DNA from: Ignisphaera sp.
GTDB taxonomy: Archaea > Thermoproteota > Thermoprotei_A > Sulfolobales > Ignisphaeraceae
DNA length: 54,913 bases
Reading direction: 5' to 3'
Assembly (NCBI GenBank): GCA_028275825.1
Contig: JAPWTX010000007.1
Location: forward strand, 1-54,913
Position numbers and translations under genes: made by a program. The notes under the pieces are model-generated. The model was not told where the DNA came from and made no database searches. It worked only from the letters and a program-made list of their open reading frames with translations. Positions within the stretch are counted from its first letter, which is position 1, and each line of letters starts with the position of its first letter. Of the stretch, positions 37,162 through 53,163 are shown piece by piece.

Positions 37162-37835
37162 GTGGAGAACATATGAGTGGTAATAGATGTGAATTGATGG
37201 AGTTAGGATTTTCCATCGATACATGGGGAGAGGTTGTGATGGTTTTCTACAGCAAGGGTGAGGTCATAGGCTTGATGCCTGTAGGTCTTAAGCTTTCTGA
37301 GGACTGCACCTTAGCTGGGAGATTGTATAGAGGATCAAAGCTATACAGCTACATTGCTAGTGCAAAGGTCGCAGAACTTCCATGCATAGCATGCATAAGT
37401 GAGGATCCTCAACTTTTCTACATGGCTGTATTTGAGAAGAGCCAAACTATAGAAATCTTTACTGAACATCGTTGCCCTGAGGAGTTCTGCGATGCATGTC
37501 TAATAGGCTTGTGCAAGTTTTTTGATGGAGATGAGGCTATAAATCTCAAGATCAGTGTGAAGGAAATTGCTCTCCATAGAAAAACACCTAGGGTGTTTAC
37601 AAGAGCTAGTGCAGCCATCATAGAGGCTCTAGTGTGGTTTACAAAACTTCCCTATGTGGATTGCAAGGATATTGAAAGAGTTTTGGAGAGGATAGAGCTG
37701 CTAAAAGAGACTGTGTACAGATCCTCACAAAAAAATATTTATGCTAAACTTATAGAAAATATATACTTGGCGGCATTCAAGCTGGTGAAAGAAGATGAGA
37801 GTTCTAGGTGTGGATCCCGGGACAAAAACATTTGA
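37158..37835 (+). CDS. DUF447-like protein
   Basis: The 225-residue protein has the DUF447 pattern: an N-terminal flavin-reductase-like barrel (VVMVFYSKGEVIGLMPVGLKL, then CTLAGRLYRGSKLYSYI) and a helical C-terminal half (RASAAIIEALVWFTKLP). Several cysteines cluster near 115-125 (CPEEFCDACLIGLC). The biochemical role is unknown. It overlaps mptD by 4 nt and the next gene by 41 nt, and DUF447 genes occur in methanopterin clusters elsewhere (from memory). Confidence 0.65.
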   Translation: MSGEHMSGNRCELMELGFSIDTWGEVVMVFYSKGEVIGLMPVGLKLSEDCTLAGRLYRGSKLYSYIASAKVAELPCIACISEDPQLFYMAVFEKSQTIEIFTEHRCPEEFCDACLIGLCKFFDGDEAINLKISVKEIALHRKTPRVFTRASAAIIEALVWFTKLPYVDCKDIERVLERIELLKETVYRSSQKNIYAKLIENIYLAAFKLVKEDESSRCGSRDKNI

Positions 37836-38955
37836 TATTGTTGTTATTGAAGATGGTGTTGCAAAGGTTGAGAAAAGCATAGATACTGCTACAATAGCTA
37901 AGAACCCAGATATTTTGATAAGTGCTGTGGATAAACTTGAAACTGATTACATTGTTGCGCCCTCGGGATATGGTGTTCCTGTGACTAGGGGAAGTGAGGT
38001 TCTTAATCCACGTAGGTTTGCTGTAGAACTGCTACTTCTCAGTACTGAGGATGATATAAGGAGGGGTGTTGAAGCTGGGGAAATAGGGATCTGGGTTTAT
38101 GATGCACTGTCCAAAGCTGTTGAGCACTTAGTTAAGAGGTATGGTATAAAGGTGCTGTTCTTACCCTCTATAATACTCCTTCCAACAGTTCCTACATATA
38201 GAAAGCTCAATAAAATAGATATGGGTACCGTGGATAAACTTGCTGCAACATTTATTGCTATACACAGTTATAGTAATAGAGAAGGTATAGACTATGATAA
38301 TGTCAATATAGTTGTAGCAGAGCTTGGCTTCGGATACAACGCTGTAATAGCTGTTAGCAAAGGCAAGATTGTTGATGGAATAGGCGGTACATATGCATCA
38401 ATAGGAACACTCACAGCCGGCTCCCTAGACCTGGAGGTTGTTGTCAGAGTGAGCCACTGGGATAGGTGGGATGTTTTTCATGGAGGCATATTCTATTATA
38501 CAAACACATTTGATATGAACGCTCTTGCAAAGGCATTTGAAAACAATGAGGAGCCTCAGGCCTCGATATTCAAGGGTTTTGTAGAGGCTGTGGCAAAGGA
38601 TATCATGAGAGCCTTGGTTGCGAGCCCAAGGGCAGAAGTAGTGATGCTAACAGGCAGACATAGCAGAATAGAACTTGTCAAAAAGCTTCTGCAAGAACTT
38701 CTAAGAGATATTGAATTCATTTATACACAGCCACTTAGAGGAGCTCTAATAAGTAAAGAAGCTGCTCAAGGATATGCCGCAATAGGCGAGGGCATTTCTG
38801 GAGGATTCTTCAAAGATCTTGTAAAACACATGGAGATAGAGAAAGCATGCGGAACAACAGCAGATTACCTAATACACGAGAAGTTGAAGATATTTAAAGA
38901 AAGGATTCAAAACACATATAAAGAGCTTGTCACACATCCAAAAATCTGCATATAG
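37795..38955 (+). CDS. DUF1464 family ASKHA-fold protein
   Basis: The 386-residue protein starts VLGVDPGTKTFDIVVIEDG, an actin/hexokinase-type phosphate-1 motif, has VVAELGFGYNAVIAVSKGKIVDGIGG near 170-195 (phosphate-2-like), and VVMLTGRHSR near 280 (adenosine region). DUF1464 archaeal proteins fit this layout; a kinase or ATPase is expected, with the substrate unknown. As third gene of the mptD operon it may phosphorylate an intermediate of the pterin cofactor. That role is inference. Confidence 0.78.
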   Translation: MRVLGVDPGTKTFDIVVIEDGVAKVEKSIDTATIAKNPDILISAVDKLETDYIVAPSGYGVPVTRGSEVLNPRRFAVELLLLSTEDDIRRGVEAGEIGIWVYDALSKAVEHLVKRYGIKVLFLPSIILLPTVPTYRKLNKIDMGTVDKLAATFIAIHSYSNREGIDYDNVNIVVAELGFGYNAVIAVSKGKIVDGIGGTYASIGTLTAGSLDLEVVVRVSHWDRWDVFHGGIFYYTNTFDMNALAKAFENNEEPQASIFKGFVEAVAKDIMRALVASPRAEVVMLTGRHSRIELVKKLLQELLRDIEFIYTQPLRGALISKEAAQGYAAIGEGISGGFFKDLVKHMEIEKACGTTADYLIHEKLKIFKERIQNTYKELVTHPKICI

Positions 38956-39023
38956 ACTGTTACAGGGCTGATGATAAGTTTAGATAGTTGTAAACAGTTG
39001 TAAATACTTAGCACTATAGGGTG

Positions 39024-39180
39024 ATGTTTGAATAGCTCTACACCCACTATAAACTCTCGGATGACCTGCACTGCGACGACATAGAGAAAAACTCAGATGA
39101 GAGTTCTATGGTGTTGGGCTCGACAGGCACCCATGAAGTGTGGGTGAAGCTAGTGAACCCACACAGAGGTGCAACCCCGC
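39024..39180 (+). repeat. Structured ~155-bp element, family R3 copy 1 (candidate ncRNA)
   Basis: It is similar along its length to the complement of 50697-50850. Both copies carry a TATA-like box at the same offset (CTATAAACT at 39047-39055). The hairpin GTGTGGGT (39138-39145) with ACCCACAC (39157-39164) is kept in copy 2 through G-U pairs. Here GCACC (39127-39131) also pairs with GGTGC (39168-39172) around it. It sits in the 551-nt gap between the convergent DUF1464 and serpin genes; the rest of that gap shows nothing recognisable. Confidence 0.55.
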
Positions 39181-39506
39181 AAACATGTTTAAAACTAATT
39201 ACAGCTACTCACAGATATTGAAAGCAGGAAAACACAATATAACTACAGGTACCCTCTTGCTTACTTTTGTTGGAGACCTTGCTCTTTAGGGTAGAGAGGT
39301 TTGTCGAAACACATAAGTCTCTATTTATTTAAATGCTTTGAGAGCTAGATATAAACAAGCTTAGCACATTGCAAACCTACAACTCCCCAAAACCAGCAAC
39401 AGTTTAAAACCATGTGAAACTCAAAGCAGTAGCTAAAGACTGTTTAGAAATGCAGTGGTGTGTTTCGCGATGTTTATAAAAATAGTTTTGTTTTGGATGT
39501 TCTTTG

Positions 39507-40760
39507 CTAATTCATTTGACTTGGGTCTATAAAGTGCCCTATAAAGAGTATTGCCTTGTTTTGGCTGTCTCTCAACATGTATATGAAGGGCTTATTTATA
39601 ATCACCTCTTCTGGGTACACATGGGCAGCTGTTGCTATGATTATTGCTGTAGCGGCTGCTGCTTCTGTACCTTTTTCATAGACCTTGATTATTGCTTGGT
39701 GCACAACTTTATCAACATATATATCCCCTCTACTAACATAAGCCATTCTGCTTAGATCAGCATTTCCTGTAAAGACCTCTCTGATTCCAAGTTTTTTGAG
39801 GTCGTCGTTAAGATTTCTACGGAATGTTATATTGAACTTGGGCATTATAAGGTGTATGAGAGTCCCTGGCTTGGTGTTATCAAGCTTGCTAAGAGCATTC
39901 AGAATGAGATCCCTGTAACTCTTTATTGCTTTACTGAAATTGCCTGGCATTATTATCACCATAGAAATTGTGGTGTTTTTATATGGTATTTCAACAGCTA
40001 CATAATCATCTCCTCTAGCAACCTTTATGTGAGTGTCGTCAACCTCCATAGCATCAACTTTAACACTACTGCTATCTCTCCAAAACTCTATCTTTCCACA
40101 AGGTGTGAACTCTTTTAGCCACTCCCCCTTGAAGTATATCACCGAAACTAGAATAGCAACAGTGTTGTCAGGAACATCATCTCTGCTAAGCAAGTTCTTT
40201 ATCAAGTTATTTGTTTTATTAGCAACCCAGCTATTGACCTCATCAACAAGCTCATTAATATCACTAGCGAAGCTCCTCACATCACCACCAAAGCATCTCC
40301 TCACACCATCCATATAGTCCTCCCTAAAGGGAAAACCACGCTTGAGCCACACACCATTAGCAACATATAGAACTGCACTGCTATTTGAACTGAGTGGTAG
40401 CATGGATAAGAGTTGCTGATAAGCTGAGCAAGCATCAGCATTATCGAGACCCATGGCATTGCCAAGCTCTTCTCTGGTAGTTGAATTAGCCCCTTCATAG
40501 AGCATTGTCAATGCTATATAGACATTGAATGGAGAAACAATAACATTCTTATCAGCATTGCTAGCCAGCATGAGGCCATAGAGATTCAGCGTAAAATTAT
40601 TTACCTTCTCAATAACTTCAGGAAGTGTAAGAGCTTTGGCAGGGACAGGAGCTGGGGAACTAAACTGGGGAGATGGTTTTTCAAAGTATACAAATAGCGA
40701 AGCCATAGCAAGAATAACCAAAACTATTGCCAATGGGTAATAGAGACTATTGCTCTTCAT
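39507..40760 (-). CDS. Serpin (serine protease inhibitor), membrane-anchored or secreted
   Basis: A protein of about 417 residues from the ATG at 40760. An N-terminal hydrophobic segment (YYPLAIVLVILAMASLFVYF) serves as signal or anchor. Serpin blocks follow: NVIVSPFNVYIALTMLYEGA, AILVSVIYFKGEWLKEF, MVIIMPG, and KVVHQAIIKVYEKGTEAAAATA, with the closing INKPFIYMLRD. The hinge EKGTEAAAAT has the small residues of inhibitory serpins, so it should trap a serine-type protease outside the membrane. The scissile region is aliphatic (IIIATAAH), with P1 perhaps Ala. An in-frame start at 40793 would only add 11 residues before the signal. Confidence 0.93.
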   Translation of the reverse strand: MKSNSLYYPLAIVLVILAMASLFVYFEKPSPQFSSPAPVPAKALTLPEVIEKVNNFTLNLYGLMLASNADKNVIVSPFNVYIALTMLYEGANSTTREELGNAMGLDNADACSAYQQLLSMLPLSSNSSAVLYVANGVWLKRGFPFREDYMDGVRRCFGGDVRSFASDINELVDEVNSWVANKTNNLIKNLLSRDDVPDNTVAILVSVIYFKGEWLKEFTPCGKIEFWRDSSSVKVDAMEVDDTHIKVARGDDYVAVEIPYKNTTISMVIIMPGNFSKAIKSYRDLILNALSKLDNTKPGTLIHLIMPKFNITFRRNLNDDLKKLGIREVFTGNADLSRMAYVSRGDIYVDKVVHQAIIKVYEKGTEAAAATAIIIATAAHVYPEEVIINKPFIYMLRDSQNKAILFIGHFIDPSQMN

Positions 40761-41069
40761 CACTTTTCCACACCTTAACAAATTAGTTAGCACTAAGTAG
40801 TTTATAGTACCTACTTACAGTGACAAGAATGTCACGTAAATCAAGACAAAAAGCAAATGAATTGACAAGTATATGGATAGCTAGTAAACTATAAAAGGTA
40901 ATGCAGAATAGAAGGTAAAACACCACAGTGATGCAAATTTTAAAGCTTAGGAAATGTATATGTAGAGAAGTGCGCTAATTCAGTATAGACTTGAAAATAA
41001 ACTTTCTGAACTCCCCCAATAGCAATGCTTATTTCACGACTTTAATCTGTTAGTTGCCTGTTATAACCC

Positions 41070-41336
41070 GAAAGCCTCGCCATTTATGGTGGAGATGAAT
41101 GAAAAGTTTATGAGCTTCCTCTGTTTTGATTGCTTTTGGTGATGAGTAATATTAGAGCTGTTGTTGCCTCTAAGCACTTGAATGCTGGATTGGCAATCAC
41201 ATGAACTGGCTGAGATGTGGGAGGCTATGGCCCTCCCAACCACCCCTCAAATGACAGATGTAAAACAGAACAGATGAGGAGAGCCAATGAGCTGCCCCAG
41301 GGGGCCCTGGCCCTTCAGAGCAGGGAGGAGGTCAGA
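41070..41336 (+). mobile_element. IS200/IS605-type miniature element (copy 4), both ends present
   Basis: It begins GAAAGCCTCGCCATTTATGG, whose CTCGCCA and TGGUGGAG pair with one bulge as in IS200/IS605 left ends. The interior keeps a TnpB-like tail (MTDVKQNR, stop, GEPMS). The right end has CCCTG/CAGGG around GCCCTTCAGAG and finishes GGGAGGAGGTCAGAC. At 267 bp it lacks any transposase and is a non-autonomous derivative. It explains most of the gap 40794-41572; the remainder holds the promoter of the next operon and no gene. Confidence 0.6.
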
Positions 41337-41572
41337 CTAAAGATCCCTTTTTGATAGAGTTGTGCTGATGTTATTAGATTTATATCATTGGTTTAATAGC
41401 GTGATTGTCTTTTGCGAATTAAGTTCGGCAAATGTCTGAAGATAGAGGAGTACAGAGGTTCTATGCTTGCATTCATCGATTGGAAAAAAGCTCTTGATAG
41501 TTACTCACATTTTGTGAGTTTGGTTTTTATAGTCATACCCTTCTTTGAAGTGATTTCGAGGTGTGGTGCTAG

Positions 41573-42265
41573 TTGGGCTCAAGCAATGCTATGATTGAGG
41601 TTGTTAATGTGTGGAAAGTATATCGTGTTGGAAAAGTTGAGTACCCAGCACTTAGAGGTGTGACAATGAGTGTGGAGAAAGGTGAGTTTCTTTGTATAGT
41701 TGGACCCTCTGGCTCTGGAAAATCATCGCTAATAAACATACTGGGTGCTATGGATAGACCTACTAAAGGTGAGGTCATTTTTGAAAAGGTTCCACTTAGT
41801 AAGCTATCTGATGACAAGCTTGCAGAGCTGAGGAATAGGAGAATGGGCTTTGTTTTTCAAACAATTAACCTCCTCAACCATCTAACAGTTTTAGAGAATG
41901 TTGAGCTCCCCATGATGGTTCTCGGCATACCGCCTAAAAAGCGTAGAGAAAGAGCCATAGAGGTGCTTAGCAGGTTTCTGCCAGAATCAACATTTTATAA
42001 AAAGCCTTTGGAGATTAGTGGGGGAGAGCAGCAGAGAGTTGCAATTGCAAGGGCGCTGGCAAATAATCCAGATGTTATCCTCGCTGATGAACCTACAGGA
42101 AACCTGGACTCTGCTAATGCACAGCAAGTTGCAAAGATATTTAGGGAGCTTAGAGATGAGGGGAGAACCATAATTATGGTAACACATAACCTAGAGCTAA
42201 CGAATTATGCAGACAGGGTAGTGAGGCTGAGGGATGGGCAAATAGTAGAGGTGGTTAAGAAATGA
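41573..42265 (+). CDS. MacB/LolD-type ABC transporter ATPase
   Basis: The 230-residue ATPase has Walker A GPSGSGKSSL, Q-loop FVFQTINLLNHLTVLENVELPM, signature ISGGEQQRVAIARAL, Walker B VILADEPTGNLD and the switch histidine MVTHNLEL. This is the MacB/LolD subtype that drives mechanotransmission rather than substrate passage. The TTG start follows GAGGTG and a TATA-like TTTTTATA at 41524-41531. It overlaps the repeat protein gene by 4 nt; the FtsX-like permease is third in the operon. Confidence 0.93.
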   Translation: MGSSNAMIEVVNVWKVYRVGKVEYPALRGVTMSVEKGEFLCIVGPSGSGKSSLINILGAMDRPTKGEVIFEKVPLSKLSDDKLAELRNRRMGFVFQTINLLNHLTVLENVELPMMVLGIPPKKRRERAIEVLSRFLPESTFYKKPLEISGGEQQRVAIARALANNPDVILADEPTGNLDSANAQQVAKIFRELRDEGRTIIMVTHNLELTNYADRVVRLRDGQIVEVVKK

Positions 42266-45200
42266 GTAGTGAGAGCATGCTTAGAAATATGCTAGTTCTC
42301 ACAACACTCCTGCTAATCACACTTCTCTACATACCGCTATACACATCCCCAGTATATTCCCAGGGAGGGCAATTCGAGGTTGTTGGAGTTACATGGGGCA
42401 CTACAACATCACCTACATGTGTAGGTCCTTGGATGCAAGCACAAATGCTAACAGTAACATTAATGTACAATGGAAATACTAGTCTACCAGGTCTCAAAGC
42501 TGAGCTATACTTGCCGCAACCCCTCAGAGATAGCATAAGCAAGTCAAGCATTGCTACTGCATACTACATGCAGCCTGTGGTAAGGGGGCAGCCAATCTCC
42601 TTAACATTCTGGATAGATGTTGGGAATGCTGCAGTGGGTGACTATAGTACATACATGATTCTGTACACGTATGTAAATGGGGTGTGGACTCCAGTTTCAG
42701 CAAAGACTATAACCATAAGTATTAAGTATACTGAGAACCTCACAATAGGGCCCAGCATCATCACAGCTTACCCTGGATATACAAACATAAGCATACAGTT
42801 AAAGAATCTAGGACTAGGCTATGCTCATGGAGCCTCCCTCACAGTATCGTCACAGTCACCACAAGTATCAGTTGTTGCGCAGCGTATTTGGATAGGGGAA
42901 ATACCGCCACAGAGCTCTACTAATATAAGCATACCCCTCTACATATCGCCAGCATTGGCAGGCTCTATAGCACCTCTATCCCTAGCCATAAACTATGTTG
43001 ATGCATGTGGCTTTAGCAGGTCCCTCACATCAGCACTATACCTATCTGTCGTCCAGCCAATACCACCACAAATCGCTTTGAGCATTTCACCATCAACTAT
43101 TATAGCAGGAGCAAAAAACAATGTAACTGTGTCCATAGTTAACAACGGATCTACAACTATCAAAGGTATTACCATCTCCTTCACCTTCCCACAGCAGGTA
43201 ATACTAGTTAATGGCTCTCTAAAGTGGTTTATAGACGAGCTAGAGCCTAGCTCATCGGCAAGCACATCCCTTATCTTAACCTCCATAGGTGTTTCGAGTA
43301 GCAAGTCTGTGACTCAAATCACCGCTACAGTTACTTACACAGATCAGTACGGTATAAGCAGAAGTGATGTAATACCTCTCACCCTAACCATAGTTAAGCC
43401 CGCGACTCTCATAGATGTGGATATAGAGCCTAGGAACCTCACTCCGGGAAGTGTTAATGAATTAACACTAATTGTGCGCAATGTAGGGAATGCCACGGCA
43501 TATGGACTAGATCTGTTGGCTACATTGCCGCAGTTCCTGATATTTAAGGATTTTGATGGGAGGTGGTATGTAGGTGATTTAAAGCCAGGCGAAGAAAGAG
43601 TGAGAGTGCTAACCCTCATAGCGCCCTCAACAACTAGCAGTGCCATTCAAATACCTGTAACGCTTAGCTATGCAGATGCAGCTCTTACCTCAAGATCTGA
43701 AACAAGATATGTAGTGCTAGTGGTAAAACCAATTGCAACCCTTCTCACAACATCTATAGAACCTGAGCAAGTTACTGTAGGGAACAACAACATTACTATA
43801 AGTGTTAAGAACTCTGGAAACATAAGCATCTACAATGTGCAAGCAATAATCTCTGTGCAGGGTGCAGCTTTCATAGGGTTTGATGGGAAGTGGCGTATAG
43901 GAGATCTAGAGCCTGGTGAGGAAAAGAGTATTACATTACAGCTCGCAACACCCTCATCATCTAACACTATTCAGATTTCTGTAGCTTATAGCTATACAGA
44001 TGTTGGGGGAAGTAGCAGGAGTGAGAATAGCGTGATTGTGTTAGAGGTGTTGCAGCCAACAATAAACATAGCTATATGGGCAAAGCCACAAAACTTGAGC
44101 ATTGGAGACAACAATGTCACTATATACATTCAGAATAGAGGTAATAGCACCATCTACAACACAATGATTGCACTTACAATACCTCAGCAGATAGCACTAT
44201 TGAACTCTGATGGCAGGGTATATATAGGCGATGTCGGACCTGGCGAAACAAAAGCATTCTCCCTACACATGACCGTGGCCTCTGGATCCAATGTGGTGCA
44301 GATGCCAGTAACAATAATCTATACTGATGTGGGTGGAGCCTCTAGAAGTGAGAACAGGGTACTTAGCTTCAGGGTAGCAGCGCAACCAACGATAGCAAAT
44401 TTTGAGGTATCTATAGAGCCTAGCAGTATAGTAAGTGGTGTGCAATCAAAGCTAAGGGTAACTGTAGTAAATATAGCAAGCAAGAGGCTTGATAACATCT
44501 CAGCTTCAATATCTTCACAAGCACTAGCTTTCGTGGGATTCGATGGAAAGTGGCTTATAGGCTCCTTAAAACCGGGTGAGGCTAGGAGTATAGATCTGCC
44601 GATATATATAAACCCTGTTCAGACCTCGCAAAACATTGCTATAACAGTTGTACTTACATATATCGATACATCCACGGGAAGCAGCAATTCTGAATCATAC
44701 ACACTTACCATAATAGCTCTGCCTAACACCTTAAAGCAGCCTCCAGAGGTGTCTGTTTATCCACAAGTGTTGGTTGCTGGTGGTGTGAATAACCTAACTA
44801 TGTCTATTAGAAATCCAAACACCTTCAATATAAGCGCAATAGGCATTAGCATAACGCCTCCAGCACAAACATCGTTGCTAGCCTCGGACACATACTTCAT
44901 ACCACTGCTTAAGCCAGGCGATGAATATATCATAACAGTGCCTCTATACATCCCACCAACTTTTGGTTCTGCAACAACCTCCCTAGCGATAGCCGTGAGC
45001 TACTTCGACGGAGCATCTACAGGTACACTTTCAAAGAGTGTAGCATTTCTCGTAGCTTTGCCACCAATGCTTAAAGTAACAAATTACGCCATCCTGCCAC
45101 AAACAATAACACCTGGACAAACATTTTCAGTAACACTTACAATAGCTAATGCAGGTATTGGAACAGCGTATAATGTCACAGTAATAGCATTACCAAGTCC

Positions 45201-45657
45201 ACTCTATACTCCACTTCTAGGCTCCCAGACATTCGTTGGTGATCTAGCTAAAGGAGCCTCAACAACAGTTACATTTAGCTTTAGAGCCTCTAGCCAGCTA
45301 AACGCAACTAACTACAACATCACTATCATAGGAAGACCTAACATTACAAGAACCTTCACCACAAGACCATTTCCAACAGTGTCCCGCAGCATTCCATACC
45401 CCAACATTACGAGACTTCCATACGCTACTCAAGCACCTCACGTTGCCATACTGATTACATTCATGGATAACATTGGTAGAAAGTACAATACAACTCTACT
45501 AATACCCCTAACCATGGTGCCGAGCAACGTAGTCACAGTAACTGCAACAAATGCTGCTGAAGGAACCTTCAGTAACCATCTGGTTTTGTCATTGGCTGTA
45601 ATTGTGGTTGTTATAGTGGCTATAACATATGTTATAATAAGGGTGAGGAAGAAGTGA
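42262..45657 (+). CDS. Giant surface protein with tandem CARDB/COG1361-like repeats
   Basis: The 1131-residue protein has an N-terminal signal segment (MLVLTTLLLITLLYIPLY), about eight tandem beta-sandwich units of about 110 residues, and one C-terminal transmembrane segment (LVLSLAVIVVVIVAITYVIIRVRKK). Each unit repeats a pattern like N.ITISVKNSGN, then FDGKW.IGDLEPGE and S.TY.D..G.SRSE. Many Asn-X-Ser/Thr sites suggest a glycosylated outside face. Such proteins lie between MacB-type ATPase and permease genes in archaea and may replace the bacterial periplasmic adaptor. The substrate is unknown. Confidence 0.85.
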   Translation: MSSESMLRNMLVLTTLLLITLLYIPLYTSPVYSQGGQFEVVGVTWGTTTSPTCVGPWMQAQMLTVTLMYNGNTSLPGLKAELYLPQPLRDSISKSSIATAYYMQPVVRGQPISLTFWIDVGNAAVGDYSTYMILYTYVNGVWTPVSAKTITISIKYTENLTIGPSIITAYPGYTNISIQLKNLGLGYAHGASLTVSSQSPQVSVVAQRIWIGEIPPQSSTNISIPLYISPALAGSIAPLSLAINYVDACGFSRSLTSALYLSVVQPIPPQIALSISPSTIIAGAKNNVTVSIVNNGSTTIKGITISFTFPQQVILVNGSLKWFIDELEPSSSASTSLILTSIGVSSSKSVTQITATVTYTDQYGISRSDVIPLTLTIVKPATLIDVDIEPRNLTPGSVNELTLIVRNVGNATAYGLDLLATLPQFLIFKDFDGRWYVGDLKPGEERVRVLTLIAPSTTSSAIQIPVTLSYADAALTSRSETRYVVLVVKPIATLLTTSIEPEQVTVGNNNITISVKNSGNISIYNVQAIISVQGAAFIGFDGKWRIGDLEPGEEKSITLQLATPSSSNTIQISVAYSYTDVGGSSRSENSVIVLEVLQPTINIAIWAKPQNLSIGDNNVTIYIQNRGNSTIYNTMIALTIPQQIALLNSDGRVYIGDVGPGETKAFSLHMTVASGSNVVQMPVTIIYTDVGGASRSENRVLSFRVAAQPTIANFEVSIEPSSIVSGVQSKLRVTVVNIASKRLDNISASISSQALAFVGFDGKWLIGSLKPGEARSIDLPIYINPVQTSQNIAITVVLTYIDTSTGSSNSESYTLTIIALPNTLKQPPEVSVYPQVLVAGGVNNLTMSIRNPNTFNISAIGISITPPAQTSLLASDTYFIPLLKPGDEYIITVPLYIPPTFGSATTSLAIAVSYFDGASTGTLSKSVAFLVALPPMLKVTNYAILPQTITPGQTFSVTLTIANAGIGTAYNVTVIALPSPLYTPLLGSQTFVGDLAKGASTTVTFSFRASSQLNATNYNITIIGRPNITRTFTTRPFPTVSRSIPYPNITRLPYATQAPHVAILITFMDNIGRKYNTTLLIPLTMVPSNVVTVTATNAAEGTFSNHLVLSLAVIVVVIVAITYVIIRVRKK

Positions 45658-46895
45658 GGGTATTAGATGTATTTCGCCTTGCATTCAAAGCACTATCAAC
45701 ACACAAGATCAGAACAACACTCCTAGTTCTCAGTGTAGTGGTTGGCGTTGCAGCTATAGTTGCTCTAACAGCTCAGACTGAGGGTGTTGGGAGGAGCATT
45801 ATCTCCTCTTTTCAGAGTCTTGGTCCTGACACCATTATAGTAAATGTTATGGGCAGGGGATTAACAGAGGCAGATATAGCATTAATATCCTCGCTAGAGA
45901 ATGTGAGAGAGGTTATACCAGTTATAAGAGAAACCGCAAGTGTTAACCTAGGTGGTAGCACAGTAAATGCAGTGATATATGGGATCTCCTCTGATGGGTT
46001 AAAGGATGTTTTGGGAGATTTAAAGCTTATTGATGGTTCTCCATATCCAGATGCGTCTGTGCCTCTAGCAGTTGTTGGAAATCAGATAGCCACATCAAAT
46101 ACTACAAATCAGCTAATAATACTCCCAGGGCAAGTACTTACAGTGAGTATCAGGGGGGGTCCAGCTTCAGTAGCTTCATCTATAACTATGATTGTTTCAG
46201 GTATTCTCGATAAATATGGCATTACAGGCTTTATATCACCAGATACAAGTATTTTCATACCTCTTCAGGCAGCTCAGCAAATATTTAATAGAAGGTGGTT
46301 CAATATGCTGATAGTTAAAGCCAGTGATCCTAATTCTGTAGATAGTGTGATAGAGGATTTGAGGAATGTATATGGGGGAACAATAAACGCCATGTCTCCT
46401 ACACAAATAGCTCAGACCATGCAAAACGTTGTTCTGCAGATGTCCATTCTTCTAGGAGGAATTGCTGCAATATCATTGATTGCTGCTGCTTTAGGCATAT
46501 TCAACATGATGCTAGTGACTGTTACTGAGAGGACTAGGGAGATAGGGACATTAAAGGCCTTGGGGTTTAAGAACAGACATATATTGACTCAGATTATTCT
46601 CGAAGGACTTCTAATTGGGTTGTTTGGAGGTGTAGCAGGGGTAGTCATAGGCATTGCTGCAGCATACATGCTACCAAACATCGTTACAAGGGGGTTGTTT
46701 AGAGCACCTATGCCAGGTGTGGGTAGAGCACAATATGCATCGCCAGTGCTACGCATCTCTTACGCACCTTACATAAATCCATTTATGGTGGTAGTATCCT
46801 TTGCACTAGCAGTAGTTATAAGTGTGCTTTCAAGTCTTTATCCTGCTTGGAGAGCGGCTAAAATGGATCCTGTCAGGGCACTGAGATATGAGTAG
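45654..46895 (+). CDS. MacB/FtsX-type ABC transporter permease
   Basis: The 413-residue protein has the four-helix MacB layout: a first transmembrane segment about 19-40, a large outside domain (about 45-260, typical MacB_PCD), then three C-terminal segments. ERTREIGTLKALGFKNRHILTQIILEGLLIGLFGG near 295-330 and the ending LYPAWRAAKMDPVRALRYE are family signatures. It overlaps the repeat protein gene by 4 nt. With the ATPase it would power a mechanotransmission transporter linked to the giant repeat protein. Confidence 0.93.
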   Translation: MRVLDVFRLAFKALSTHKIRTTLLVLSVVVGVAAIVALTAQTEGVGRSIISSFQSLGPDTIIVNVMGRGLTEADIALISSLENVREVIPVIRETASVNLGGSTVNAVIYGISSDGLKDVLGDLKLIDGSPYPDASVPLAVVGNQIATSNTTNQLIILPGQVLTVSIRGGPASVASSITMIVSGILDKYGITGFISPDTSIFIPLQAAQQIFNRRWFNMLIVKASDPNSVDSVIEDLRNVYGGTINAMSPTQIAQTMQNVVLQMSILLGGIAAISLIAAALGIFNMMLVTVTERTREIGTLKALGFKNRHILTQIILEGLLIGLFGGVAGVVIGIAAAYMLPNIVTRGLFRAPMPGVGRAQYASPVLRISYAPYINPFMVVVSFALAVVISVLSSLYPAWRAAKMDPVRALRYE

Positions 46896-46920
46896 CAATA
46901 AAGCTAAGAGCCTCTAGTGA

Positions 46921-47424
46921 GTGACACTTTTTGAGGTGTGGAGTGCTGTGCGTAGAGATACAGTTATGGTGTTAGTTATAAGTCTAGCAATAGCATTGAT
47001 ATGGCCTTTAACAACGTATATAATATACCCCATTCCCCATGAGGATGTTGAATTTATCACTAACATTAGCGATTTTGCTTTTCCTGAGAGACCCCCGCCA
47101 GGTTTTTTAATTGGTGTAGGAGGACTTTTAACGTTTAGGGGATCAGGTTTTGAGTTTAAAGGTGTTGCTATATCTGCTCGTGGAGATATAGCCATTATTA
47201 AATTGGAGTCTGGAGAAACTATAGCAATGCTATTTATGCCGAGATATAGGTGTATTGGTGTAGAGGGTGTGTTAAGCGGTTATGAGTTGGCAAAGTTTAT
47301 AGCTAATAAGAGTGCTGTGGTTAAAGGGCACATGTTCTTAACTCGCGGAGGCTATGTACTCATACCGCTCGAGGTTATTGTAGAGAATAGAACATGTATA
47401 GCTATATTCCCTCACCGTAGATAG
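46921..47424 (+). CDS. Membrane-anchored protein of unknown function
   Basis: The 167-residue protein starts at GTG, has one transmembrane segment near 14-36 (VMVLVISLAIALIWPLTTYIIY), and a soluble outside domain that is beta-rich (VGGLLTFRGSGFEFKGVAIS, AMLFMPRYRCIGVEGVLSG, FLTRGGYVLIPLEVIVENRTC). The second half is mildly reminiscent of an OB-type barrel, but I do not assign a family. It lies 25 nt after the permease and may be part of the operon. Confidence 0.55.
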   Translation: MTLFEVWSAVRRDTVMVLVISLAIALIWPLTTYIIYPIPHEDVEFITNISDFAFPERPPPGFLIGVGGLLTFRGSGFEFKGVAISARGDIAIIKLESGETIAMLFMPRYRCIGVEGVLSGYELAKFIANKSAVVKGHMFLTRGGYVLIPLEVIVENRTCIAIFPHRR

Positions 47425-47450
47425 ACTGTAACTGTGGTAGGAAATTTGCC

Positions 47451-48011
47451 ATGAATTTATATATGCTTCTACTCTTGATAGTTGAATCTATTAGCATAGC
47501 TGCGTTTACTTATCTATCTATTTTATTCATCAGAGTTTATAGGAGAATTAAATCAGAGAGTATTCTATTCTACACAATATTTATTTTGCTTCTTCTCTTA
47601 GGGCAGCTCTGTGGAATTCTATCCACTGTAGTGTCCAATGCGAGAATAGCTGCAACACTATATGTCGCATCATCATCACTTGCTGTTGCAGGTTTTATGA
47701 TAACGCTTTTCTCATCCTTTAGCTCTAATGAGCTATACATAGTTATACCAATATTCATCGCCTCTCCAGATATATTAGCAGGGATATTATCAACAGTGTT
47801 TGTGATAGAGAGTGTTAGGGGAAGGACAAGATATTTCATATCAATTCTATCAGCATCTTATTACATCAGAGGCATAGGAACCCTATTAACAGCTTTCCAA
47901 GGATCATTACTAGCACTATTAATCTCTGAAACCATAAGAGCTAGTGCAGTAGTACTCCTAGCACTTCATCACACTGCCCAGGTACTAGCATATGGCGAAG
48001 AAAAGAGATAG
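47451..48011 (+). CDS. Polytopic membrane protein of unknown function
   Basis: The 186-residue protein has about five or six hydrophobic segments and few charged residues. No motif was recognised. It overlaps the winged-helix gene by 20 nt, so the two are likely co-transcribed, and the regulator might control or sense through this protein. Confidence 0.6.
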   Translation: MNLYMLLLLIVESISIAAFTYLSILFIRVYRRIKSESILFYTIFILLLLLGQLCGILSTVVSNARIAATLYVASSSLAVAGFMITLFSSFSSNELYIVIPIFIASPDILAGILSTVFVIESVRGRTRYFISILSASYYIRGIGTLLTAFQGSLLALLISETIRASAVVLLALHHTAQVLAYGEEKR

Positions 48012-48264
48012 ACTAGAGATAATATTTGAGATCCTTGATGCACTTTCTAAAGAACCACTAAATCCCACAAAGCTAGCAACACTAGTGAACATGCCTTACG
48101 ATAGGCTTAAAAAGTTGCTGGAAGAGTTGATAGAGAAGGGAATGGTTCAATGCGAGGAGCAGGGAAAAGCAAAGATATTTAGACTAACCTCACAAGGGTT
48201 CAAGATCCATGAAGAACTGAAAAAAGTTAGAAAGATACTGCAAGACTATGGAATATTAAAGTAA
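47992..48264 (+). CDS. Winged-helix transcriptional regulator
   Basis: The 90-residue protein has an archaeal winged-helix pattern: IIFEILDALSKEPLNPTKLATLVNMPYDRLKKLLEELIEKGMV, then a wing AKIFRLTSQGFKIHEELKKV. Such single-domain proteins bind DNA as dimers. It ends the ABC/membrane gene run and may regulate it. The target is unknown. Confidence 0.82.
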   Translation: MAKKRDRLEIIFEILDALSKEPLNPTKLATLVNMPYDRLKKLLEELIEKGMVQCEEQGKAKIFRLTSQGFKIHEELKKVRKILQDYGILK

Positions 48265-48331
48265 CCTCTCCTCCACTATAAAGGACTAGGGCTCCTAGAT
48301 AACCAACCAGCTTTCCATATCTATTTGAACT

Positions 48332-48456
48332 ATTATGAGTTTGAAGCGTTTTGCAAATATCTCTAGACACTTCTTAATGAGGTGTTGAAGGTTTGAAAAT
48401 TTTGGCTATTGATTACTTCTGATTACCCATGCTTCTGAAAGCCACAGGACTTTGAA
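48332..48456 (+). repeat. 125-bp repeat, family R2 copy 2
   Basis: It matches 28073-28197 at 124 of 125 positions in the same orientation. Here it lies in the 577-nt gap after the winged-helix gene. Apart from a weak small frame at 48537-48728, nothing else is seen in that gap. Confidence 0.9.
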
Positions 48457-48536
48457 CCTCTGAATAGCTCCTAGTCTCGGCATCTAGATAGAGGCTTTAG
48501 TGAAAACAGCTTTGAGAAGCCGTAGCCTGCCTATAG

Positions 48537-48728
48537 TTAGCTGTGATTAGCTGTAAATAGCTGGCCTAGATTTATTAACCTCTCCACAATAGCTGGCTCC
48601 CTCCTTCTGCATATACCATATATCAAGCAAACCACCAGAACATCAAAATCTTGCTGAATATCAAAACCATAGTAAGCAAGGATCTTCACAATAGCACTCA
48701 AATAATTAGTGCAGGTAAGTATTGCCAC
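48537..48728 (-). CDS. Doubtful small frame or gene fragment
   Basis: A 63-codon frame starts at GTG just after a TATA-like GTTTATAAG. It reads AILTCTNYLSAIVKILAYYG, then DFDVLVVCLIYGICRRREPA and IVERLINLGQLF. It looks protein-like but matches no family I recognise, and it has no ribosome-binding site. It may be the remnant of a longer gene. Confidence 0.25.
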   Translation of the reverse strand: MAILTCTNYLSAIVKILAYYGFDIQQDFDVLVVCLIYGICRRREPAIVERLINLGQLFTANHS

Positions 48729-48841
48729 TTATAAACAAGCACCGCTCCACATATGCACCACCCCCAGAATAAAAACTTAGACGTTTGTAATCGCATCCAT
48801 GCATCAACAGAGAAGTGGATATAATATAAATCTGCTCAAGA

Positions 48842-49438
48842 TTATTCGTTACTTGCTATAAGGCGTCTAATGGTTTTCCAGGCTCCGAGTGTTATTGGTA
48901 CTACGTAGCATACTACTGTGGCATTAAATATTGCAATATATGGCAGACACTTCATTGTGAAATCGTATGCAGTTTCAAATGTTTTCATCCATCCGGCCCA
49001 TAATAGCCAGTAGGGAGTTACGAGGTAGTTTAGTAGTAGCATTGCACCAACTCTGCTAATAAGTGCCATTATAAATGCTGCAATCGATGCCTTAGTAAAA
49101 CTGTGAGTTTTTGAAAGCTTTTTGAACACAATTGCTAGAGGTATTGCTGTGAAGGCCTCTGCTACAACTTTCATTGAAGGTCCTATAATACGTGTTGGAT
49201 CTTTTGTCAGGTATACTGCACCTAGCCAGAATATTGGTAGTGAAGATGTTCCGAGCCTTAAACTAATGAGCATTAATATAGCTATTGGTATGCCTGACAA
49301 ATCGTATGTCAGGAATGTAGCTAGTGGGAATGGGAATTGAAATATGTGGAGGATTATTGCAAGTGCTGTAAATAGTAATAGGTATGCTAGTTCAATGGAG
49401 CTTGCGATACTCTGACTTTCTCTCTTGGGCTTCTTCAA
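48842..49438 (-). CDS. ECF transporter substrate-binding S component
   Basis: The 198-residue protein has five or six hydrophobic segments and the ECF S-component pattern FPFPLATFLTYDLSGIPIAILMLISLRLG near 35-63, reminiscent of RibU-like vitamin binders. It would capture a vitamin for import by a shared ECF energy module encoded elsewhere. The substrate (riboflavin or another vitamin) is not decidable. It is divergent from the PhoU-like gene. Confidence 0.78.
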   Translation of the reverse strand: MKKPKRESQSIASSIELAYLLLFTALAIILHIFQFPFPLATFLTYDLSGIPIAILMLISLRLGTSSLPIFWLGAVYLTKDPTRIIGPSMKVVAEAFTAIPLAIVFKKLSKTHSFTKASIAAFIMALISRVGAMLLLNYLVTPYWLLWAGWMKTFETAYDFTMKCLPYIAIFNATVVCYVVPITLGAWKTIRRLIASNE

Positions 49439-49509
49439 TTTTGAACACCTACTTTTTGTTATGTGCTGTTAACTGGATTTTGTATAGTCAATTCTTTTTA
49501 AGGTTTGCG

Positions 49510-49551
49510 TTTAAGCTTTTTATATTTAAACTTTTTAAACAGAGTTTAAAC
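49510..49551 (+). promoter_or_regulatory. TTTAAAC repeat array before the PhoU-like gene
   Basis: TTTAAAC occurs at 49525, 49534 and 49545, with a near copy TTTAAGC at 49510. The last three are about one helical turn apart (9 and 11 bp), so a regulator could bind them on one face of the DNA. A TATA-like TTTTTATATTT overlaps the array. Function is inferred from spacing only. Confidence 0.4.
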
Positions 49552-49574
49552 AATAACATTATCGGTGTGTTGCT

Positions 49575-50597
49575 ATGAAGAAGGTTTACAGGCTTCAAGC
49601 AATTGGTGGATCTATATATGTAGCACTACCTAAGGAGTGGCTTAAGAGATTCAACTTGGATAAGGGATCAGCTGTTGAAGTTATTGTAGATTCTGATAGA
49701 GGGCTTAAGATCCTGCCCCTGGAGAGAGGAGTAAGCCAGGAAGGTGTTTCAAAGAATTTAGAGATAGAGATCTTTGTTGAAAAACCAGCTGAAGTATTTA
49801 CATCCCTTTTAACAGCTTACCTCAGGGGATTTGATACAATAACATTGAAATTTTCCAGTGGTAATGTCGAGAAGGAGGTTAAGGATATTATAGACAATGC
49901 TAAAGAACTTCTTCTCGGGCTTGAAACTGTTGATACAGGTAGTAACTACATCGTGTTGAAGATACTTGCCTCAGAAGATGTTGATATAGATCAGCTTGTG
50001 AAAAACATGCACAAAATTGCAAGATCCATGTACCTAGACTCTCTTCAGGCACTTGAGCAACGAGATGTGGAACTGGCTAAGGCAGTAACGCTTAGGGATC
50101 GTGACATAAATAGGCTGTACTTCTACATAACAAGAGCAATTAGAAAGAAGATTCTAAGCCCAGAATCGGTGGAGCCGAGAAACTTGTTGAAGCTTATTGA
50201 CATGAGGATGCTGATAAAGTTTATAGAGAGTATCGGAGATGAAGCTAAGAATGCAGCTCTATCAGTTATAGAAATGGCATTGAAAGGCTTAAAAACACCA
50301 AATGAGTACATGGATACTGTGAAGGAAGGAATAACAAAAATAGATGGAGTATACAAGACAGCGGTCATGAAAGCATACGACAAAGCGCTAGATATAACCG
50401 AGCTTCGAGAATACATGAAATTATGCTCCCTTGTTAAGGACACACTAAGGCATATAAGAATTAGAATCGCTGAACAAGGCACTCTATACTGGTTTACAGA
50501 GTTTCTGAGATCATACGAAAACATAGCTATGAATGTTTATGATATACTTAGCTTAATGCCACCAGAAATAGCCCCTACAACAATGATCTATGAATGA
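49575..50597 (+). CDS. PhoU-domain regulator with N-terminal AbrB-like domain
   Basis: The 340-residue protein joins a swapped-hairpin DNA-binding domain (VYRLQAIGGSIYVALPKEWLKRFNLDKGSAVEVIVD, about 3-40) to two PhoU-type helical bundles (about 125-330, including LEQRDVELAKAVTLRDRDINRLYFYITRAI). Archaeal proteins of this build are thought to regulate phosphate uptake. The ATG follows GGTG. No phosphate transporter genes are in the window, so the regulatory target is elsewhere or different. Confidence 0.85.
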   Translation: MKKVYRLQAIGGSIYVALPKEWLKRFNLDKGSAVEVIVDSDRGLKILPLERGVSQEGVSKNLEIEIFVEKPAEVFTSLLTAYLRGFDTITLKFSSGNVEKEVKDIIDNAKELLLGLETVDTGSNYIVLKILASEDVDIDQLVKNMHKIARSMYLDSLQALEQRDVELAKAVTLRDRDINRLYFYITRAIRKKILSPESVEPRNLLKLIDMRMLIKFIESIGDEAKNAALSVIEMALKGLKTPNEYMDTVKEGITKIDGVYKTAVMKAYDKALDITELREYMKLCSLVKDTLRHIRIRIAEQGTLYWFTEFLRSYENIAMNVYDILSLMPPEIAPTTMIYE

Positions 50598-50696
50598 GCA
50601 TATTTAATCAATCTAGATTGAGTATAGCAACATGGCCACAGGGCTGGGGGGATCCCGCTAACGGTACTCGATGTTATCTGTGAATTGTATTTCCGT

Positions 50697-50850
50697 TAGT
50701 GGGGTTGCACCTCTATGTGGGCTCACCAGCATCACCCACACCCCATAGGTGTCTGTAGAGCCAAACGCCACGAGGCCCCCATCCGAAATCTCTATATCAA
50801 CTCAGTGCAGATAATCCGAGAAACTATAAAGTATAGAGTTGTTTAAACAT
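50697..50850 (-). repeat. Structured ~155-bp element, family R3 copy 2 (candidate ncRNA)
   Basis: Read on the minus strand it aligns with 39024-39180: the TATA-like complement of 50821-50832, CTCGGATTATCTGCACTG, then GGTGTGGGTGATGCTGGTGA and CCCACATAGAGGTGCAACCCC. An extra 3' hairpin follows only in this copy: CTAACGG pairs with CCGTTAG (plus-strand 50658-50664 and 50693-50699). It lies in the 440-nt gap between the PhoU-like gene and vapB; nothing else is seen there. Confidence 0.55.
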
Positions 50851-51037
50851 TAACTCTAAGAGCCAAGTATCTACAGATATTCACAGATATCTAAACTTAC
50901 CATCAGTTATGTAACAGCCTCGCTATTACTAGGTGTGTTAATGGCTATTGAAGTTAATTAGTTTAGTAACTTCATGCTTAAGCAAACTAGAAAAACTTAT
51001 ATACTAGTAAATCTTGAGTTGTACTAGGATTTTTGAA

Positions 51038-51280
51038 ATGGAGCAAATTGTTAAAGTTACTCGCAATTTTCAAGTTACTATTCCTGCTGTTATTAGAGAT
51101 AAGATTGGGCTGAAGGAAGGCGATATTGTTAAGGTGATTTATGACGAGAAGGAAGGGGTTATAAAGATTGTTCCTATAAAGAGGAAGAGAACTACTATTA
51201 GGTTGGGTAAGAGTATTAGTGTTGAGGAGATAGAGGAAGCTGTTGAGGGAATGATAAGTGAAGCTGTTACCAGATACTAA
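51038..51280 (+). CDS. vapB: AbrB-type antitoxin, VapB
   Basis: An 80-residue protein from the ATG at 51038: VKVTRNFQVTIPAVIRDKIGLKEGDIVKVIYDEKEG is the AbrB/SpoVT swapped-hairpin domain, and the acidic helical tail ISVEEIEEAVEGMISEA would wrap the toxin. A TATA-like AACTTATATACTAG lies at 50994-51007, giving a short leader. An in-frame TTG at 51014 is less likely. It overlaps vapC by 23 nt. Confidence 0.88.
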   Translation: MEQIVKVTRNFQVTIPAVIRDKIGLKEGDIVKVIYDEKEGVIKIVPIKRKRTTIRLGKSISVEEIEEAVEGMISEAVTRY

Positions 51281-51665
51281 CATACTTATCTATGATACTG
51301 TTGAAGATAGTGAATACCATAGTATAGCTTCAGAGATTATTGATAAAGCCATACAAATCTTTATACCATCTATCGTTATACATGAATACTTATGGGTGAT
51401 GCTTAGACTGTTGCAAGCACCTCTCAATATTATTGAAATAAAGTTGTGCGAGTACCTCGAGGATCCAAGAACAGTGTATATATTAGAGAGCATAGATGTT
51501 CTTGTCAATGCCTTAAAAATGCTTACAGAAGATAAGCAAGATGTTAAAGAGATAAACGATTACATAATTCTCTCGACGGCACAAAAATATAATCTCATGT
51601 TAGCAACATTTGATAAAAAGCTTAGAAAGATAGCTATTAATAGAAATTTAAAAGTAGTACCATGA
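51258..51665 (+). CDS. vapC: PIN-domain toxin, VapC
   Basis: The 135-residue protein has the PIN-domain acidic residues in PDTNILIYD (about 5-13), IHEYLW (near 42) and NDYIILSTAQKYNLMLATFDKKL (about 100-122). VapC toxins cut tRNA or rRNA with Mg2+. It starts at GTG inside vapB, so the pair is co-translated. Length and order are normal for VapBC. Confidence 0.9.
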   Translation: MKLLPDTNILIYDTVEDSEYHSIASEIIDKAIQIFIPSIVIHEYLWVMLRLLQAPLNIIEIKLCEYLEDPRTVYILESIDVLVNALKMLTEDKQDVKEINDYIILSTAQKYNLMLATFDKKLRKIAINRNLKVVP

Positions 51666-52378: not shown

Positions 52379-52792
52379 TTGGAGAGGTTTGAGGAGGCTA
52401 AGAGGTGGCTTATGCAAACACTTAGAGACCTTAGCGCTGCTGTAGAGAGCTTTAGGGATGGGTACTTTGAGTGGAGCTGTTTTCAAGCACAGCAAGCAGC
52501 TGAAAAAGCTGTTAAAGCTCTTCTCTATGCACATGGAAGAAGCTCGTGGGGTCACACAATAGTAGAGCTGCTCGACTACCTAAAGGATGTTGAAGGGGTT
52601 TCAGAAGAGCTCTACACCTATGCCAGAGAGCTTGATAGGCACTACATTCCATCGAGATATCCAAATGCGTTTGAGTCTGGATACCCAGCTCTATACTATG
52701 ACAGTGCTGTAGCTGAAAGAGCTCTTAACTCAGCCAACAAAATTATTGAGTGGGTGAAACAACGTTTGAAAGCTCTTGGGCTAAGCGTATAG
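52379..52792 (+). CDS. HEPN-domain protein (toxin of a HEPN/MNT pair)
   Basis: The 137-residue helical protein has the HEPN layout: DLSAAVESFRDGYFEWSCFQAQQAAEKAVKALLYAHG near 17-53 and the RNase-type motif RELDRH (Rx4H) followed by YIPSRYP near 85-97. HEPN proteins of this kind are usually RNases or their inactive relatives. The start is TTG after a G-rich GGGGGGTG site. It overlaps the MNT gene by 43 nt, the usual toxin-antitoxin arrangement. Confidence 0.88.
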   Translation: MERFEEAKRWLMQTLRDLSAAVESFRDGYFEWSCFQAQQAAEKAVKALLYAHGRSSWGHTIVELLDYLKDVEGVSEELYTYARELDRHYIPSRYPNAFESGYPALYYDSAVAERALNSANKIIEWVKQRLKALGLSV

Positions 52793-53163
52793 AGGCTACA
52801 TTGCCTGAGCTTGGAAAGAGGCTTAGAATTGAAGCTGCCCTAGTCTTCGGGTCGTGGGCTAGGAGTGGAGGTGGTGAGTGGAGTGATATCGACTTGCTAA
52901 TAGTTAGCGATGACGCTAAACACATAGGCATTTTAGAGAGGTTTTCAATAGCCGCAGAGCTTAGGAGAGAGAAGATAGATGCATTCATCTATACATACGA
53001 AGAGCTGGTAAATATGATGAACAAAGGTAATCCACTAGCACTATCAGCACTCATAGAAGGAATACCAATAAAACTAAGCAAGAGAATTGAAGAGCTGAAG
53101 AACAAAGCTCAGAAAATGTATAAACGAGTTGGAAGGTGCTGGGTAGCCCAGCTCCCAAAGTGA
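52750..53163 (+). CDS. MNT-type minimal nucleotidyltransferase (antitoxin of a HEPN/MNT pair)
   Basis: The 137-residue protein has the nucleotidyltransferase motif AALVFGSWARSGGGEWSDIDLLI near 28-50 with both metal aspartates, and a third acidic residue in REKIDAFIY. In known HEPN/MNT pairs this enzyme inactivates the HEPN toxin, for example by adding AMP groups. The GTG start overlaps the HEPN gene. The C-terminal 25 residues after EGIPIKLS are basic and unusual. Confidence 0.88.
   Translation: MGETTFESSWAKRIEATLPELGKRLRIEAALVFGSWARSGGGEWSDIDLLIVSDDAKHIGILERFSIAAELRREKIDAFIYTYEELVNMMNKGNPLALSALIEGIPIKLSKRIEELKNKAQKMYKRVGRCWVAQLPK

Follow-up and report, generated by a model that had tools for sequence, protein, structure and literature searches.

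Gene-less IS607-type mini-elements in an Ignisphaera genome and their probable TnpB guide-RNA scaffold

Introduction

In 2009, 14 repeats of ~260 nt related to IS607 were reported in Staphylothermus marinus as miniature inverted-repeat transposable elements (MITEs) (PMC2678158). Ghosts of a Fanzor transposon were described in Spizellomyces punctatus in 2023, with omegaRNAs on which the nuclease could work in trans (PMC10432273). IS607 elements insert by recombination at matching dinucleotides (PMC4058570; PMC10711439), and their guide RNAs (omegaRNA or reRNA) contain a pseudoknot, needed for activity, in which the first stem's loop pairs with guide-flanking nucleotides (PMC10711439; PMC11061315, as PK2). 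Here we describe a repeat family represented twice in a 54,913-nt stretch of DNA from Ignisphaera sp. (JAPWTX010000007.1; hereafter the window), which is contig 84 of a host genome of 1.81 Mb in 86 contigs. The repeat is very probably a non-autonomous, ghost- or MITE-like IS607 derivative of Desulfurococcales-type archaea, with a retained omegaRNA that would serve TnpB in trans. Its identity as an IS607-derived mini-element is well supported; we infer expression of the omegaRNA and guiding in trans.

The family resembles the S. marinus MITEs in being a multi-copy repeat of ~260 nt, linked to IS607, from an archaeon assigned to the same order. The S. marinus paper treated its repeats as inverted-repeat MITEs, drew no link to guide RNAs and predates the discovery of TnpB function (PMC2678158). 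As with the Fanzor ghosts, there are many copies of transposon ends and omegaRNA without a nuclease gene (PMC10432273). The Fanzor ghosts, however, belong to a eukaryotic inverted-repeat transposon with Fanzor1, whereas an IS607 serine transposase and TnpB are involved here, in archaea; the omegaRNA here also overlaps the tnpB coding sequence and has a pseudoknot, unlike that of the ghosts. Gene-less derivatives of TnpB-carrying insertion sequences reportedly occur among archaea as the palindrome-associated transposable elements (PATEs) of Haloquadratum walsbyi; the autonomous parents here differ in belonging to the serine-recombinase elements of the IS607 family and in their GC core. Stand-alone IscB omegaRNAs and TnpB-linked PATEs have been discussed in other work. 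In our literature searches, no open paper described prokaryotic omegaRNA elements that lack TnpB, an absence that is weak evidence of novelty.

Results

Copies and extent of the repeat

An earlier note on this DNA had described an inverted pair of ~155-bp structured elements at 39024-39180 and on the complement of 50697-50850. Homologous repeats are indeed present at both places (74% identity over 150 bp, E 8e-20), and the homology is far above chance. The real units are longer, however (282 bp and ~274 bp): they begin ~70 bp further upstream and extend ~55 bp further downstream. Their inverted arrangement carries no special meaning, the two being among many dispersed copies: a search of the host genome returned 27 DNA-level matches with copy 1 as query and 32 with a fuller copy. 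Aligned together with their flanks, the copies formed units of ~265-292 bp running from AGGCTGTTACAG to GCGGGGAAACGC. Homology ended abruptly on either side, and the flanking DNA was unrelated between copies. Copy 1 is a complete non-autonomous element at 38954..39235 on the forward strand, with edges set by the all-copy alignment and end profiles. Copy 2, also complete, occupies 50647..50920 on the reverse strand (BLAST, 50654-50920; end profile; covariance model R1, 50647-50783). Its right terminus is eroded past 50654, where GGAAACGC has been replaced.

Two types of 3' end occur in the family. The majority carry a CTAACGG/CCGTTAG hairpin, and a minority, copy 1 among them, have another segment. 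The hairpin is present in copy 2 (50658..50699, reverse strand; CTAACGG at 50699-50693, CCGTTAG at 50664-50658), as the earlier note had read, but copy 2 did not add it: it is the majority state, and copy 1 has the minority end. In the minority type (window 39138-39235 and copies L006, L015, L021, L034, L039 and L044) a segment nearly reverse-complementary to the left subterminal region (TTTAAATATTTGTGAATAGCTGTAGATA) stands in place of the terminal hairpin, so that these copies have subterminal inverted repeats. Two copies, L004 (C6:21886-22176) and L008 (C21:37860-38150), share 99% identity where the genome median is 78%, which means that some of the movement is recent.

Ends and insertion site

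The 58 left edges had the composition A47 G48 G50 C51, and most of the 71 right edges read GGGGAAACGC. The flanks were patternless except for a T at position +1 in 40 of the 71. Empty sites were sought by comparing the joined flanks of 19 copies with 11 genomes of the genus. For one copy (L064, contig 27, 17865-18141), the surrounding stretch was present without the element in four relatives (L139, L141, L144 and L162), and all four read flank-AGGC-flank. The element itself lies between AG-GC and GC-flank, with a single GC dinucleotide common to both junctions. Since the empty sites read in this way, integration is placed at AGGC with a GC core. Neither the edges nor these empty sites showed a terminal inverted repeat or a duplication longer than the core dinucleotide. 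The junctions of another copy (L018) were noisy because its right end is eroded. The left junction of copy 1 reads AGAC (38954..38957, forward strand), a degenerate form of the AGGC target with its GC core, according to the edge composition and the empty sites.

Judged from these junctions, the insertion mode is that of IS607, recombination at matching dinucleotides. The GG crossover described for IS607 itself (PMC4058570) was not matched, the core here being GC. GG is present as the terminal dinucleotide in a related Staphylothermus-like family, and we did not treat it as family-defining because the dinucleotide varies among members. The hairpins near the end and the missing terminal inverted repeat would also suit an element of the IS200/IS605 (PATE) type, which moves as single-stranded DNA by means of an HUH (Y1) transposase that acts on hairpins. 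With a GC core at both junctions, and with autonomous elements that have the same ends encoding an IS607 serine TnpA, this origin is hardly credible.

The geometry expected if the right flank served as guide and the left-junction motif of the empty site as target-adjacent motif (TAM) was seen for one insertion in four relatives. Published IS607 systems have a TAM of AGG type (AGGAG, GAGGG and GGG; PMC10711439, PMC11061315), and the candidate motif here is AGGC. For copy 1, the expected guide would be the right flank at 39236..39255 (forward strand), by the organization of IS607 reRNAs (PMC10711439, PMC11061315).

Relation to complete IS607-type elements

A degenerate pattern of the 3' end, run against the genome collection, found 31 stretches, 28 of them in Desulfurococcales-type archaea. 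In seven of these loci (L069, L072, L073, L079, L091, L094 and L096) the corresponding 140 nt form the in-frame 3' end of tnpB, whose stop codon falls within the terminal hairpin and 11 nt short of the right edge. Four of these loci (L069, L073, L079 and L096) are complete elements of 1959-1972 bp (~1.96 kb), which have the left ~60 bp and the right end in common with the mini-elements; the common left-end region in copy 1, from an alignment of full and mini elements, is 38954..39013 (forward strand). The first open reading frame (ORF) of L069 and L073 encodes an IS607-family serine transposase (NF033518, E 4e-60 and 5e-56), and the second matches TnpB families (TIGR01766, E ~1e-15; NF040570, where it stays below the cut-off, E 1e-12). 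The tnpB frame of L096 has an interruption upstream. With the cognate TnpB as query, phmmer retrieved nothing from the PDB and Pfam likewise gave no match, so that its membership rests on NCBIfam and the alignment. Structure prediction for this TnpB, based on four sequences, reached a pLDDT (predicted local distance difference test) of 49.5 and was not used.

In the cognate TnpB subfamily (L069, L073, L079, L094 and L116) the Zn-ribbon cysteines are missing, and so is the canonical RuvC-II Glu, with VLEKL changed to VxGNI. An invariant Glu stands 7 residues before the first former Cys (SERGTSSRDPFTG), the position of the relocated Glu in pro-Fanzor/Fanzor enzymes. Among prokaryotes, the pro-Fanzor/Fanzor enzymes are described as confined to cyanobacteria (PMC10711439). 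The L073 protein also has an Asp to His change in RuvC-III.

Structure of the scaffold

The domain of copy 1 homologous to the tnpB 3' end spans 39096..39235 on the forward strand (covariance model R1, 8.3e-32). On sequence grounds, this structured right half is the scaffold of a TnpB guide RNA (omegaRNA/reRNA) located at the tnpB 3' end. An alignment of 56 sequences gave a structure of three domains: GAGCCC/GGGCUC; GGGCC/GGCCC carrying GUGUGGG/CCCACAC; and CCCCGCUAACGG/CCGUUAGCGGGG. In copy 1, hairpin 1 (GAGTTC/GGGCTC, covarying helix 1) pairs 39101-39106 with 39116-39121. Stem 2 (39127..39172, covarying helices 2 and 3) consists of an outer part, GCACC/GGTGC, at 39127-39131 with 39168-39172, and an inner hairpin of 8 bp, in which GTGTGGGT (39138-39145) pairs with ACCCACAC (39157-39164), all on the forward strand. 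The inner hairpin had been recognized in the earlier note and is real, and the two G-U pairs that it noted in copy 2 (50715..50741, reverse strand; 50741-50734 with 50722-50715) can be read directly in the sequence.

RNAalifold alone produced a mixed structure on the mini-element alignment, and the helices were hence tested one by one. Across the 56 sequences, 91% of pair cells were paired and ~9% broken. By the earlier note, uncompensated stem breaks in copies elsewhere, together with a lack of expression, would refute its reading; the outcome for the stems is mixed, and breakage at this level is expected because these are decaying transposon copies. Doubly changed cells numbered 105, against 33±5.5 in shuffles. 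The covariation score was.244 compared with.145±.005 in shuffles, and at most.066 when the partners were slid. An alternative AUGGG/CCCAU helix was 98.6% paired, with covariation not above shuffles.

An unsupervised scan flagged a pseudoknot in which GCGUU, from the first hairpin's loop, pairs with the last five nucleotides, AACGC. Copy 1 carries a compensated variant, in which GTGTT in the loop of hairpin 1 (39111..39115, forward strand) pairs with AACAC (39231..39235, forward strand), the last five nucleotides of the scaffold, which hold the core dinucleotide and form the right edge. A second genome, a single contig of 1.6 Mb that is probably Staphylothermus (G092), had 17 model matches with the same hairpin 1 and pseudoknot. 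In its 13 aligned copies the loop GCCGUU and the terminus AAACGG are fully compensated; the loop here is GGCGUU, and the terminal dinucleotide is GG there as against GC here. With these copies included, hairpin 1 and the pseudoknot scored.272 versus.112±.012.

The family covariance model matched 118 of the 214 genomes of the order. Within the host, matches lay within ~60 nt downstream of 5 of the 21 Zn-ribbon TnpB genes (C4 twice, C5, C23 and C77), where ~0.1 would be expected from the match density by our own arithmetic. The scaffold topology, three stems and a pseudoknot, is the same as that of published IS607 reRNAs. The family shares with ISXfa1 (PMC10711439) and with the RAGATH-18 reRNA of ISFba1 (PMC11061315) an IS607 TnpA/TnpB pair, a scaffold with its terminus at the right end, three stem-loops, a pseudoknot from the first stem-loop and a fixed crossover nucleotide within the scaffold. 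It differs from them in its GC core, its Cys-less TnpB, the overlap of scaffold and tnpB coding sequence and the lack of an Rfam match: Rfam gave none in the window, and none at E<=5 for 38900-39400, RAGATH-18 included.

A shared TATA-like box and a stem kept intact through sequence change had led the earlier note to favor a functional RNA. Covariation bears out a conserved RNA structure, but on our reading the RNA is the TnpB guide-RNA end of an IS607-type mobile element and does not stand by itself. A free-standing cellular regulatory RNA that had been amplified would suit the covarying structure and the TATA-like box. It would hardly be expected to show sharp mobile edges, precise empty sites and unrelated neighbors, or to be homologous with both ends of a transposon and with the 3' end of tnpB, and we consider it very improbable.

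Parts retained by the mini-elements

The mini-elements have neither a transposase ORF nor a nuclease ORF, and they keep the ends and the omegaRNA scaffold. The frame leading to KYR-stop is maintained in many of them, as it would be if a decayed tnpB fragment were conserved for a short C-terminal TnpB peptide. Nucleotide diversity at the three codon positions of 44 mini-elements was nevertheless.232/.228/.252, and 19 of the 44 had lost the frame. Given this equal diversity and these losses, the constraint is not on protein; compensatory pairing also predicts the pattern better, and conservation for a peptide is extremely unlikely.

Upstream of the scaffold, two further segments are kept. A TATA-like box, noted earlier in both copies and present in both, reads TTTGAATA in copy 1 (39027..39034, forward strand; family form TTTAAATA) and TTTAAACA in copy 2 (50840..50847, reverse strand). 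It is near-invariant in the mini-elements (mean conservation.91 for the box segment versus.77 for the adjacent spacer), and TTTAAATA was not found at the corresponding place in complete elements. We regard the box as a candidate archaeal promoter for the omegaRNA. The other segment, GGATGACCTGCACTGCGACGA in copy 1 (39059..39079, forward strand), is homologous to the tnpB codons for LVIRSAVKG by comparison with L072, L096 and others. This second tnpB piece, GGATGATCCGCACTGCGGTGA in the mini-elements, is non-contiguous with the tnpB 3' end and might be the 5' part of the omegaRNA. The box appears to be placed about where an archaeal TATA box would start a transcript just before it.

Supply of TnpB

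Several observations weigh against a retained, working guide RNA. Of the cognate TnpB, the host assembly yielded nothing intact and fragments only: one of 166 aa with 71% identity on C50, and decayed pieces on C71. The host may lack an intact cognate enzyme, although absence from the assembly is not proof because repeats break this assembly. Copy 2 is without the pseudoknot strand, and in copy 1 the core reads AGAC and the terminal stem contains mismatches. The broken pair cells count on the same side, and some covariation may date from differing autonomous parents and have passed from them to the mini-elements. The host genome also holds several other TnpBs and IS607 transposases. In favor of a retained guide RNA, another genome (G129, apparently Bin S11) has open full elements together with several mini-elements.

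A rival reading is an ordinary IS607-derived MITE whose right half was kept for the transposase, or as the remnant of a founder deletion, with no omegaRNA made or used. The mobile-element anatomy, the missing intact TnpB and the partial decay of many copies suit this explanation, and the S. marinus repeats were described simply as MITEs (PMC2678158). On the other side, scaffold pairs and pseudoknot persist, with compensating changes, in different families and genera. Because the DNA that IS607 recombines is double-stranded, an RNA-like structure of ~165 nt would be unneeded for transposition. The second, non-contiguous tnpB segment and the near-invariant TATA-like box have been kept as well. 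An ordinary MITE is the less likely explanation, and a retained TnpB omegaRNA is preferred.

Genomic setting

Copy 1 lies between a DUF1464 gene (37795-38955) and a gene for a serpin-family protease inhibitor (39507-40793, reverse strand; PF00079, E 3e-90) in this archaeal host. Near copy 2 are a PIN-domain gene (51258-51665), a HEPN-domain gene (52379-52792) and, after the latter, a small ORF (52750-53163); the PIN and HEPN genes are possible toxin-antitoxin-like cassettes. Elsewhere in the host, one mini-element (L020, contig C76) stands directly downstream of the 3' end of an apparent tRNA gene, as read from the flank. The left flanks of L013 and L017 (TTTACAGCTATTCAC...GATGCAGACCCAGC) recur several times at 87-90% identity on contigs C2, C27, C30, C36 and C42 (with C7 and C77) of the same genome (G000), mostly beside weak R1 matches. 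From their sequences, these flank repeats appear to be a second, related family of mini-elements, with copies of the present family inserted beside its members. Searches for a plasmid or phage origin of the repeat gave no matches.

Discussion

A mobile element with a retained guide RNA suggests the following mechanism. The mini-elements would have lost tnpA and nearly all of tnpB, keeping both ends as well as the guide-RNA scaffold that stops at the right edge. An IS607 serine transposase acting in trans would recombine the GC-core ends with an AGGC site, a step whose product junctions and empty sites are observed. Insertion would fuse the retained scaffold to the right flank. Transcription, probably from the element's own TATA box, would then yield an omegaRNA with a guide matching the empty site beside AGGC. 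Loaded into TnpB supplied in trans, this RNA would allow the nuclease to recognize and cut the site upon loss of the copy, and retention of the mini-element would be favored, by analogy with TnpB and Fanzor systems.

More tentatively, and with somewhat less than an even chance of being right, the mini-elements might be dedicated, promoter-driven guide-RNA genes. Each would express a compact omegaRNA, put together out of two separate stretches of tnpB and driven by a TATA box of its own, and dozens of gene-less copies would share one TnpB, of an unusual Cys-less kind with a relocated glutamate. Each insertion would thereby police its own target site, a distributed, trans-acting and RNA-guided form of MITE retention.

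TnpB nucleases have usually been studied with the guide RNA of their own element. If the proposed use in trans is true, one nuclease would be reprogrammable by dozens of gene-less parasitic copies, which would bear on the persistence of MITEs and on how transposon guides could have given rise to separate guide arrays like those of CRISPR. Co-variation of the pseudoknot with the transposase's crossover dinucleotide, GC here and GG in the Staphylothermus-like family, gives comparative support to the published idea that IS607 scaffolds absorb crossover bases. The same reading would explain the ~260-nt Staphylothermus repeats of 2009.

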